This document shows, piece by piece, positions 9,852 to 12,689 of a stretch of 39,555 nt of DNA. Source of the DNA: a virus. The stretch's first letter is position 1; the number at the start of each line of letters is the position of its first letter. The notes beneath the pieces are model-generated. The model worked only from the letters and a program-made list of their open reading frames with translations, was not told the origin of the DNA and searched no databases. Where the stretch lies: positions 1 through 39,555 of IMG/VR virus record IMGVR_UViG_3300032235_000249. One strand, given 5' to 3'. The position numbers and the translations under genes were made by a program.

Positions 9852-10089
9852 CTCTAACAACCTCCACTGTGATCTTACAGGCGAACCCGTCGTTGAACTT
9901 GATTGACCGCTCTACCGTTTGCGTCTGGCCATCGGCGGACAAGTCCGCGCACAGGCACAACAGCACATCGTTGGTCACGTCCTTGATTGGCACGATGGCC
10001 TGACGGAACTTCTCGTGCGTCAGCCATATCGTGCCGTCCTCGGCCTTGGCGCGAATGTGAAAGTGCTTTGGGTTTAGGACGACTTTCAT
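9841..10089 (-). CDS. Hypothetical beta-rich protein
   Basis: The product has 82 residues. It alternates short strands (KVVLNPKHFHIRAKA, TIWLTHEKFRQAIVPI, VLLCLCADLSADG, SIKFNDGFACKITVEVV), so it is probably a small beta-barrel or sandwich. The start overlaps the upstream stop (ATGA). No family is recognised. Confidence 0.6.
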   Translation of the reverse strand: MKVVLNPKHFHIRAKAEDGTIWLTHEKFRQAIVPIKDVTNDVLLCLCADLSADGQTQTVERSIKFNDGFACKITVEVVRDDV

Positions 10090-10250
10090 ACCAGCCCCTT
10101 ATGCTCACATGTCTTGCGCAAACATGCCTTGATGCCATCGGCGCGGATTGAGGCGTTGCAATAGTCGCACCAAATGAATGTGCTGCGGTCTGATTTTGGT
10201 TTGGTCATTTCGAAAGTATCTAGCGTTAGCGTAAGGTTGTTAACCGACAT
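10086..10250 (-). CDS. Small zinc-finger-like protein
   Basis: The product has 54 residues from the ATG at 10250, which overlaps the end of the IbrA-like gene by 11 nt; an ATG at 10208 gives 40 residues. The second half holds WCDYCNASIRADGIKACLRKTCEHKG, that is CxxC followed by two further cysteines and a histidine, consistent with one zinc site. It directly follows the IbrA/IbrB cassette and may or may not belong to it. Confidence 0.55.
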   Translation of the reverse strand: MSVNNLTLTLDTFEMTKPKSDRSTFIWCDYCNASIRADGIKACLRKTCEHKGLV

Positions 10251-11445
10251 TTGCGCGTTCTTTCTTGATTTGCAGATAACGGCCATACGCTTCAGACTTT
10301 GGTTGCGTTAGTCCAAGCCCCTTACACCACCAGTCGTTACGTAAAAGTACCTTGCACAACCGGCGATAGGACGGTGCCCAGTGTTGATCCTCTAGTATCT
10401 TAGGGGCTTCATCTGGAATGACGCTATAACCTCGCCCATACCATCCTTTCAGCCAACTACGGAACCGCACAATGTAATGCTCCCGCGTTGGTTTTGGCAG
10501 CGACATTAGCAAGAGGTTGCAAAACGACTTCCACGAATGCCCATCGGGCTTAACAATCTTGTTGTAGCCCATAATGTTGCCCATTTCCTGCACATACAAC
10601 GCGCCGGAGTTTGCGCCATTCACGCGAGCAATCAGCTTGAACCATGTTTCAGGCTCTAGAACGTGATAGAGCCACAATCCTTTGCGCTGGTCATCGCCAT
10701 AAGGCTGGCACAAGCGTTGCTGGCTAAGCGGGACACCTGCTTGCTGCATTAGGTCATAAACGTGATTGTGTGGCTTATCTGGAAACCGTGCATGGTAGCG
10801 CCAAATATCCTGCGTTCGCCAATCATAAATCGGGTAGACGTTGTAAGTCTCGCCAATGATATGAGTGGTGTAACGCTTGCCGCCGTGCATCTTCTTATCA
10901 AACACGGCAATAGTGCGAAAACGGTTTAGGCTTTCATCGGCGCGAATGCCGACAAAACCACCACATGGTTGACCTTGCCCATACCATTCACCAAACAGGA
11001 CGACAAATTCCTCAAACTCCATTCCTGGCTGAAAGAATGGATAGAACGCCGGATCAATGATTGCCTCTTTGGCGGGTTGGCGAACCCAAATGTCTTTGCA
11101 TTCTGGATCCCAACATGTCCAACGCGGCTCGTAGTTGGTGACAGCGTTGCGCAGCGACATTGGCAAGCAAACCCAATGCAGGTCTATATAATCCCGATAT
11201 AGGTCTACCATTTCCTGCAAATGCGTATCTGTGGCGGTGTATTGCGCCTCAAGGTCAATGATAAGCACAGCCACCTTGCGGCCACGCTTTATCGCCTCGT
11301 CCATAACAAGGTGCAGCATGACACTGCTATCCTTGCCACCTGAAAAGCTAACGTAAATGCGCTCAAAGCTGTCAAACGCATAAGCTACGCGATCACGCGC
11401 TGCATCAAGCACATTCTGCTCGCGATAAATCTTTCTGTCAGTCAT
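10240..11445 (-). CDS. ibrA: IbrA-like PAPS reductase / ATP-pyrophosphatase family protein (DUF3440-like)
   Basis: The product has 401 residues from the ATG that overlaps the upstream stop. The ATP-pyrophosphatase loop SGGKDS lies at residues 35-40 (YVSFSGGKDSSVMLHL), followed by an adenylate-binding fold of the PAPS-reductase type. Other conserved-looking segments are GGFVGIRADESLNRF and YPIYDWRTQDIWRY, typical of the IbrA/DUF3440 branch. Family members activate a substrate with ATP and act in sulfur chemistry, as DndC does in DNA phosphorothioation; IbrA itself is known as a regulator of immunoglobulin-binding proteins in E. coli. The substrate is unknown. It is the third gene of a cassette with a 141-residue protein and an IbrB-like ParB protein. 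The cassette appears poorer in GC than its neighbours. The longer frame from 11547 is not supported. Confidence 0.85.
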   Translation of the reverse strand: MTDRKIYREQNVLDAARDRVAYAFDSFERIYVSFSGGKDSSVMLHLVMDEAIKRGRKVAVLIIDLEAQYTATDTHLQEMVDLYRDYIDLHWVCLPMSLRNAVTNYEPRWTCWDPECKDIWVRQPAKEAIIDPAFYPFFQPGMEFEEFVVLFGEWYGQGQPCGGFVGIRADESLNRFRTIAVFDKKMHGGKRYTTHIIGETYNVYPIYDWRTQDIWRYHARFPDKPHNHVYDLMQQAGVPLSQQRLCQPYGDDQRKGLWLYHVLEPETWFKLIARVNGANSGALYVQEMGNIMGYNKIVKPDGHSWKSFCNLLLMSLPKPTREHYIVRFRSWLKGWYGRGYSVIPDEAPKILEDQHWAPSYRRLCKVLLRNDWWCKGLGLTQPKSEAYGRYLQIKKERANVG

Positions 11446-11870
11446 CAGTAAAGGTCCGCCTGTGTTTTTCCGAGAGCATCTTCCATTCCGATTTGCGGAT
11501 AGCCGTTGCGAAGCATCCAAAGGTTTATGGTGTCCAATGCGATCCAATCGGCATGTTTCTGCTGCAATTCGTTAAGCAGGAAATAGCCACCACAAAAAAA
11601 CTTAGAAACGCCCGTCTCTTTGCACATGGCTGTTTGACCCATCCATGCAATGCGGTTCATGCGCTCATTGGTGAGGTAATGCTCGCAGCTATACTGCCAT
11701 TCGTTAATGACGTTTTGTGCAGCACTAGAAAAGCGCACATCATCTTTCAGGAAGTCCGCATACATCCGCTTGCACTGGTCAATGGTCATGTTTTTGTGCG
11801 GTGGCTTAGTGTTGTAGAAGCCCGCAGGGAAGCATTCCCACTTGTCCCATGTGTGATATATGCGCTCCAT
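11445..11870 (-). CDS. Conserved middle protein of the IbrB-IbrA cassette
   Basis: The product has 141 residues from the ATG at 11870 (TGATG overlap with ibrB; GAGGAG upstream). It is rich in aromatic residues and cysteine: WDKWECFPAGFYN near the N-terminus, then VINEWQYSCEHYLTNERMNRIAWMGQTAMC. I recall proteins of the same pattern beside PAPS-reductase and ParB genes in other phages, but no functional name. It lies between the two enzymes with overlaps of a few bases on either side, so the three are almost certainly co-translated and probably work together. It could be a substrate adaptor; this is inference. Confidence 0.75.
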   Translation of the reverse strand: MERIYHTWDKWECFPAGFYNTKPPHKNMTIDQCKRMYADFLKDDVRFSSAAQNVINEWQYSCEHYLTNERMNRIAWMGQTAMCKETGVSKFFCGGYFLLNELQQKHADWIALDTINLWMLRNGYPQIGMEDALGKTQADLY

Positions 11871-12532
11871 CAAACTTGCTCCTCTGGCGCGTCCACAAGG
11901 TCAAAGTCATCAATGTCCCATGATTGCGAAAAATCCTCGTCCGCGAATAGATCGGCAATTCCGCTAATTTGGCAAAGGCGCAAAACTTCATCCGGCTCCA
12001 TGCCAAGGTTTTTAGAGATTTTCTCGTCTGACCAGTTCCGCTTTTTAAGTTCAATCACAATGTCAGACATTGCCTCAACGCGGTGTTTGCCGCGTGCGCG
12101 ATTGTGGCGGATTGTGGACGCCATGCGGTCCGTTTTGTCGGCTTGACTTTCGCGTATCTGCACAAGCGGCAAATAACCATGAACGCGGCTCTGAATGTCC
12201 GCACATTCCTTGCCGACACGGTGACGGTGGAAGCCGTCAATAACCTCAAACGTGTCGTCTGGATCAGCCATCGACACAATGGGTTGTGTGTATCCGTCTG
12301 CGTCAATCGAAAGGCGCAGCAGCTCCATTTCAGGCGGCGCAACGCTGTTTGGGTTGTAATCGTTGGAATGCACCAGCGTGTTAGGAACCCATCGCACAAA
12401 GTCCACCGGCTCACTTTTGAACGGGCTAACTTCATGTAAAGCCTCACGGGTTGCGTTCAATGCTTTAACACGCTCTTCAAGCGGCAACTCCGCAAGGCTA
12501 GCGATATAAGCCTGAATGTGATCTGGCAACAT
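11870..12532 (-). CDS. ibrB: IbrB-like ParB/sulfiredoxin-fold protein
   Basis: The product has 220 residues. The ParB/Srx-type nucleotide-binding motif reads FEVIDGFHRHRVGKE (about residues 94-108), preceded by the LRLSIDADGYTQPIVS strand-helix unit that opens this fold. A helix-turn-helix-like segment follows (IVIELKKRNWSDEKISKNLG), and the C-terminus is acidic. ParB-fold proteins bind and hydrolyse CTP or ATP; the IbrB branch is found next to IbrA-like genes. AAGGAA lies just upstream of the ATG. It is the first gene of the cassette, separated by 25 AT-rich bases from the gene before, one of the few gaps in this operon. Confidence 0.85.
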   Translation of the reverse strand: MLPDHIQAYIASLAELPLEERVKALNATREALHEVSPFKSEPVDFVRWVPNTLVHSNDYNPNSVAPPEMELLRLSIDADGYTQPIVSMADPDDTFEVIDGFHRHRVGKECADIQSRVHGYLPLVQIRESQADKTDRMASTIRHNRARGKHRVEAMSDIVIELKKRNWSDEKISKNLGMEPDEVLRLCQISGIADLFADEDFSQSWDIDDFDLVDAPEEQV

Positions 12533-12557
12533 TCTATATTCCTTAAATTATAGTTGG

Positions 12558-12689
12558 TTACTTGCGCCCGAGCAGCTTGGCTATCTTATCCAGCAAATCC
12601 ACGGCTTCGAAATAGCCTTTTGGGTTACGGTCTAGATATGCCAGATGCTCCGCATTAACGCGGGCGCGGGTCCATTGTTCAAGCGTCAT
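12558..12689 (-). CDS. Hypothetical small protein
   Basis: The product has 43 residues, helical and basic (MTLEQWTRARVNAEHLAYLD, then FEAVDLLDKIAKLLGRK). It overlaps the preceding gene by 11 nt. It shows no recognised motif. It ends just before the ibrB leader, which holds a TATAAT sequence (12547-12552, read on the minus strand) without a good -35 box. Confidence 0.55.
   Translation of the reverse strand: MTLEQWTRARVNAEHLAYLDRNPKGYFEAVDLLDKIAKLLGRK

Follow-up and report, generated by a model that had tools for sequence, protein, structure and literature searches.

Phage IbrB and IbrA are accompanied by a third protein, encoded by a gene that we call mid (middle gene; the name is coined here). 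The genes ibrB, mid and ibrA are a genuine conserved unit, and mid is a real third part of the IbrA/IbrB system. All three were verified as minus-strand open reading frames in the 39,555-base virus record, referred to here as the window. The cassette and its features are as follows:

12533–12557, minus strand: AT-rich leader before ibrB, 25 nt, with an AAGGA ribosome-binding site.
11870–12532, minus strand: ibrB, 220 aa from an ATG start; ParB/sulfiredoxin-fold protein with a C-terminal helical or HTH-like region.
12218–12238, minus strand: DGFHRHR motif of IbrB, residues 99–105.
11445–11870, minus strand: mid, 141 aa from the ATG at 11870; all-helical protein.
11835–11855, minus strand: N-terminal HTWDKWE motif of mid, residues 6–12.
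10240–11445, minus strand: ibrA, 401 aa from the ATG at 11445; PP-loop ATP-pyrophosphatase (PF01507) with DUF3440 (PF11922).
11326–11343, minus strand: PP-loop SGGKDS of IbrA, residues 35–40, a sequence motif.
10243–10497, minus strand: C-terminal domain of IbrA, residues 317–401, which is a free ORF beside mid in phages Gaia and XCL1123.

A 435-aa version of ibrA with a TTG start was rejected as overlong, the ATG at 11445 being preferred. The two gene junctions, TTTGATGG and CTGATGAC, are each a one-base stop/start overlap, in keeping with an earlier sequence-only reading of this DNA, which had described three genes overlapping by a few bases behind an AT-rich leader. The leader is also present: 25–28 nt ahead of ibrB have a GC content of 21% and contain AAGGA, a plausible ribosome-binding site. 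No promoter-like site above chance was found for the cassette, and no structured RNA or tRNA was found in the window. A replication and recombination block encoding a resolvase-like protein, a helicase, a Cas4-type exonuclease, SSB, Sak4 and a primase lies ~3 kb from the cassette. Two small minus-strand ORFs adjoin it: one at 10086–10286 overlaps the 3′ end of ibrA, has a CxxC...C zinc-ribbon-like pattern and is without a match in the nearest cassette relatives, and one of 43 aa at 12558–12689, immediately upstream of ibrB, has its only counterpart, at 52% identity, in the nearest relative (L001).

Linkage of the three genes was seen from both directions, in locus sets that include some near-identical contigs and a few contigs common to several sets. 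A scan of IMG/VR with mid alone returned 46 loci, in 46/46 of which ibrB precedes mid and ibrA follows it, all in the same orientation, and a distant mid query from Pseudomonas phage Amjad_SA returned 16 more, with both genes in 16/16; together, the two queries give 62/62 viral loci with both ibrB and ibrA. A scan with an IbrA alignment, blind to mid, found ibrB in 80/80 loci and mid in 76/80, this set being the best 80 of 434 confirmed relatives by similarity and thus describing the near clade. When the IbrA set was reduced to 90% identity, mid was present for 110 of 124. The co-occurrence implied by the earlier description of a cassette is therefore strong in phages, and the intact cassette recurs in more than 100 phage sequences, many of them otherwise unrelated.

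Among cultured phages, the mid family was found only in Mwe-JY13, XCL1123, Amjad_SA, Gaia and Nebkiss, with ibrA and ibrB both present in 4/4 of those whose regions were examined. Scans with the XCL1123 and Gaia mids added no relatives except Gaia itself. Cellular genomes are nearly devoid of mid. A pattern scan of the whole collection located it on four MAG contigs; in 273 further cellular genomes of the class of genome G002, mid was found in none and DUF3440 in one. A contig binned in a genome of candidate division WWE3 (CPR) carries a fused IbrB~mid together with IbrA (L053), and may represent a CPR phage or misbinning.

Five arrangements were observed: ibrB-mid-ibrA (71 loci), an ibrB~mid fusion followed by ibrA (55 loci), mid-ibrA-ibrB (15 loci), ibrA-ibrB...mid (Gaia and XCL1123), and ibrA/ibrB pairs without mid. 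In the most frequent of these, the spacing is at most 20 nt between ibrB and mid in 70/71 loci and between mid and ibrA in 64/71. The 55 fusions join mid to the C-terminus of IbrB, and the distribution of the fused state on the IbrA tree, a quick tree with some long branches, corresponds to at least five fusion/fission changes along well-supported branches. Six related loci (L068, L072, L076, L077, L078 and L081) have an extra mid-ibrA gap of similar length, ~340 nt, and the ORF in this gap is GNAT acetyltransferase-like by eye in L068 and L072.

Pairs without mid occur on enterobacterial and Vibrio plasmids and on a Salmonella contig, and among Firmicutes, Fusobacterium, Bacteroides and Flavobacterium copies. 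Four near-clade loci also lack it, among them L136, L144 and L152, which were checked directly and fall within the same IbrA clade; mid is thus dispensable. The enterobacterial IbrA/IbrB (immunoglobulin-binding regulators) belong to the same two protein families (about 41–46% identity for IbrA, 43–47% for IbrB copies) and are likewise encoded by adjacent, overlapping genes, but these lie on plasmids and islands in the order ibrA-ibrB, without mid and with no other shared linked gene. Plasmids of Klebsiella and E. coli very often carry IbrA homologues, with 586 records reaching E 1e-20, and the annotated plasmid regions examined around them hold ibrA-ibrB pairs without mid. In Lactobacillus, Fusobacterium, Streptococcus and Flavobacterium phages (L055, L057, L059 and L061), the mid-less ibrA-ibrB pair adjoins a ~400-aa SNF2-type helicase and a small gene of ~110–126 aa.

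No fourth constant gene was found, the best neighbour family being helicase-like and present in 16/109 loci. Neighbours that recur without being constant resemble helicase, ERF-type annealing protein, DnaB, SSB and YqaJ, as judged by eye or by annotation. These surroundings bear on whether IbrB, mid and IbrA form a regulatory complex, a transcriptional switch for genes of the phage or of a resident prophage, in which ATP turnover by IbrA is the switch itself and not chemistry on a substrate. The likeness of IbrB to the DNA-binding proteins ParB and Noc is consistent with such a role, as is the position of several Firmicutes copies next to Cro-like and antirepressor genes; moreover, the sole published function of the family is the joint activation of eib genes in prophages, reported for E. 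coli IbrAB (Sandt 2002, as cited in PMC10434257 and PMC6008420). However, the genes that recur beside mid-bearing cassettes are those of replication, recombination or packaging and not repressor genes, and the complete PP-loop active site and the substrate-loop residues of IbrA are strictly conserved, beyond the need of a switch. We consider a regulatory complex less likely than the reading preferred below, but a serious rival to it.

IbrB and IbrA are 74–95% identical in L001, L002, L003, L046 and Mwe-JY13, whereas the flanks compared with those five have only two matches, the 43-residue ORF in L001 and a distant helicase in Mwe-JY13 (26%). Neither the complete Mwe-JY13 genome nor two other long contigs contain a match to the portal and capsid proteins of the window. 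The dN/dS values relative to L001 are 0.02–0.05 in ibrB, mid and ibrA. Synteny thus shows that the cassette moves horizontally between unrelated phages, and it is under strong purifying selection; similar IbrB and IbrA amid unrelated flanks, combined with low dN/dS, indicate that the unit is exchanged as a block and kept functional.

Base composition does not add to this evidence. The cassette is less GC-rich than its surroundings, as the sequence-only reading had noticed (50.0% vs. 55.6% elsewhere in the window, with only 1.2% of same-length windows as low), but its interpretation of low GC as a sign of acquisition did not hold. GC3 in the cassette (0.54–0.60) is inside the range of the other genes (0.535–0.681) and the deficit lies in codon position 2, so the low GC reflects amino-acid composition, and recent acquisition was rejected as an explanation for it. 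The same pattern is seen in most relatives (106/135).

Mobility between unrelated phages, together with mid-less relatives on plasmids, is typical of genes involved in inter-element conflict, and would fit a role in counter-defence or takeover, with a host protein as the target of adenylation by IbrA, or a nucleotide pool that the complex would deplete or edit. Kinases are among the ParB/Srx-fold proteins, one being SbnI, a weak profile match of IbrB, and a GNAT-like ORF (by eye) sometimes lies between mid and ibrA. Against this, no PADLOC model matched beyond the shared fold, and the parts show no toxin/antitoxin-like pairing; they all lie close together on a single strand, with strong conservation. 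This role seems rather unlikely to us, though it too is a serious rival.

The window copy of mid has no family match in Pfam, PHROGs, NCBIfam or PADLOC, and matches of its family to PHROGs are marginal and single only, bearing out the earlier impression that the middle protein is undescribed. In the literature searched, we found no report of mid, its strict linkage, its repeated fusion or its tie to the C-terminal domain of IbrA. AlphaFold2 gave a confident, all-helical model of mid (pLDDT 90, pTM 0.85). A Foldseek search with this model against the PDB gave no match under E 2.6, and the best VIA-align score was Z 3.4, to the helices of 14-3-3, a likeness that may be just a common helical arrangement. 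Assignment of mid to a known fold was abandoned for want of a standout match in either comparison, though this is not proof of a new fold. The sole clear match of the model in a viral library was A0A649V0K8, which we take to be the XCL1123 homologue.

The HTWDKWE motif of mid is invariant in the near family, and its glutamate, E12, is invariant in 60/60 of a wider set. The description of mid as a cysteine-rich partner is correct for this copy, which contains 5 Cys, and fails for the family as a whole, in which none is conserved throughout (best C62, 105/119); on this ground, a zinc or sulfur-carrier protein was ruled out. A further candidate, that the mid domain is the long C-terminus of phrog_2159, was rejected because the fused protein matched only positions 46–229 of 365.

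The arrangement in Gaia and XCL1123 provides a clue to the partner of mid. These phages encode a long-form IbrA, and a small ORF after mid is homologous to the C-terminal 60–80 residues of short IbrA (E 8e-13 and 2e-12):

L058 5823–6137: free IbrA C-terminal domain ORF of Gaia (gp107), following mid.
L049 5236–5592: free IbrA C-terminal domain ORF of XCL1123, following mid and without a CDS in the record.

This suggests that mid and the IbrA C-terminal domain work together. Pairwise mid distances correlate most closely with those of this domain (r 0.78, partial 0.46, rising to r 0.89, partial 0.68 in the unfused set) and most weakly with those of IbrB (r 0.34). The sequences being related, no p-value is attached to these correlations, and they do not amount to proof of contact. 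In the fused set, the difference in correlation with mid between the two parts of IbrA vanishes. From the fusions, the free domain and these distances, we infer that mid probably bridges IbrB, to which it is tethered or fused, and the C-terminal domain of IbrA, on which it would dock.

For IbrB, the ParB_N match of the window copy is weak (E 6e-4, below cut-off), and ParB_N was found in 38/48 of its relatives (best 5e-8). Profile comparison matched ParB (4umk, E 2e-5), Noc and, weakly, SbnI (E 0.016). The relatives and the 4umk match both place a ParB N-terminal fold in IbrB and, with DGFHRHR at residues 99–105, agree with its earlier identification as a ParB/sulfiredoxin-fold protein. Residues D99, G100, H102 and R103 are invariant in the 48 relatives and the D-G-F-H-R core is near-invariant. 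The window protein matches phrog_2159 at E 6e-67, and an HMM of viral IbrB retrieves plasmid IbrB at E 1e-51 to 1e-84. No ParA was found among the scanned window proteins.

IbrA scored 115.5 bits against PF11922 (cut-off 25) and 52.2 bits against PF01507 (cut-off 22.5); with both over cut-off and the adjacent IbrB homologous to plasmid IbrB, the pair belongs to the IbrA/IbrB families. SGGKDS and GIRADESxxR are conserved in IbrA relatives, and the recognition of IbrA as a PAPS-reductase-fold ATP-pyrophosphatase from its SGGKDS was sound. In the predicted model (pLDDT 86, pTM 0.82), residues 6–262 aligned by VIA-align with FAD synthase (Z 14.7, 3.8 Å, 179 residues), APS reductase (Z 14.2), PAPS reductase (Z 13.7) and CysD (Z 13.5). 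By this model, the fold appears effectively tied between sulfonucleotide reductases and adenylyl-transferases, and cannot tell the two apart. While IbrA shares the PP-loop fold with FAD synthase, CysD and CysH (Z 13–15), it differs from them in its conserved ParB-like and helical partners and in an extra C-terminal region (about 300–401), which lies outside all those PDB matches.

The sequence-only reading had raised the possibility of a sulfur-based, DndC-like modification, in which IbrA inserts or reduces sulfur in nucleic acid. Consistent with this are the PAPS-reductase fold, weak local DndC matches (E 2e-7, the best stretch covering only residues 165–240 around the GIRADES loop) and two near-invariant cysteines, C246 (116/124) and C374 (120/124); housekeeping desulfurases can serve as sulfur donors. 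However, IbrA scored 24.3 bits against the DndC equivalog TIGR03183, far short of its cut-off of 290.4, and none of its cysteines is strictly invariant: C374 is missing in 4/124, C246 is lost in long-form relatives, and C111 is present in 93/124. In counts of neighbour families, which bear on linkage of DndD, DndE or a desulfurase, none exceeds 16/109 loci, and no fourth gene such as a cysteine desulfurase is linked. The match of IbrA to folds of the CysD and FAD synthase type, which work without sulfur on the enzyme, is just as good. Given the missed equivalog cut-offs, the lack of an invariant cysteine and the lack of a linked gene, sulfur chemistry is not supported, and we judge it improbable. 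Dnd systems, by comparison, combine the cysteine dyad of DndC with a desulfurase that is either dedicated or borrowed (PMC10853773, PMC12839542).

The annotation of phage homologues as PAPS reductase would suggest an auxiliary metabolic gene for sulfate assimilation. The scores of IbrA against the CysH/PAPS-reductase equivalog (25.5 bits, cut-off 254.2) and CysD (30.0 vs. 396.6 and 32.9 vs. 195) are nevertheless far under the cut-offs, and that pathway has no place for a constant ParB-like partner or for mid. IbrA is thus not a plain sulfate-assimilation enzyme, and this explanation is highly improbable.

Our preferred reading, which we hold tentatively, is that the three genes encode one machine, swapped among phages as a cassette, that would act on nucleic acid and adenylate its target. 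IbrB, which presumably binds NTP and probably DNA, would be a ParB/sulfiredoxin-type NTP-binding protein that loads on the target and gates the reaction. IbrA would convert ATP to AMP and PPi, adenylating and so activating an acceptor; NTP gating, the adenylation step and the target are all drawn from family knowledge. The helical adaptor mid would be tethered or fused to IbrB at one side and docked at the other on the C-terminal domain of IbrA. Most likely the machine would be active on nucleic acid in the early or replication phase. IbrA would activate either a base or backbone group of the target or a group in a small donor, and the resulting modification would probably differ from the sulfur insertion of DndC.

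Our best guess at the target, nucleic acid, has three grounds: one partner is ParB-like, replication genes often lie nearby, and there is a parallel in DpdB and DndB, ParB-like proteins that accompany DNA-modification enzymes (PMC12839542 and PMC10853773, respectively). In Dnd phosphorothioation, a ParB-superfamily protein (DndB) is likewise paired with a PP-loop/PAPS-reductase-fold enzyme (DndC), whereas the phage cassette encodes an IbrA that is not DndC (24 of 290 bits) and has no strictly invariant cysteine, contains mid and lacks a recurrent fourth gene. In the Dpd 7-deazaguanine system, a ParB-like ATPase (DpdB) is coupled to the DNA-modifying enzyme DpdA (PMC12839542); the phage cassette differs in that no TGT-like enzyme is seen in it, the catalytic partner being a PP-loop enzyme. 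Against the preferred reading, the enterobacterial IbrA/IbrB pair works without mid, and no methyl-, glycosyl- or amino-donor enzyme that would explain an attached group is linked among the neighbour families of 109 loci. A more specific version, possible if somewhat doubtful, is a three-subunit phage nucleic-acid modifier consisting of a ParB-like NTPase, a new helical adaptor and a PP-loop adenylating enzyme directed to DNA or RNA, with a modification outside the phosphorothioate, deazaguanine and hydroxymethyl pathways.

IbrA and IbrB themselves belong to families already described; judging from the literature searched, what is new would be the third component, with its strict linkage, its recurrent fusions and its relationship to the C-terminal domain of IbrA. 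Since 2002, IbrA/IbrB have been known only as activators of prophage genes (the eib genes of Sandt 2002, as cited in PMC10434257), yet they are widespread in phages and plasmids. The three genes, with no other constant neighbour, define a minimal set for expression and assay. In most related phage copies, a third component that is fused or coupled, and that likely docks on the IbrA C-terminal domain, provides the first concrete handle on how this system is built.
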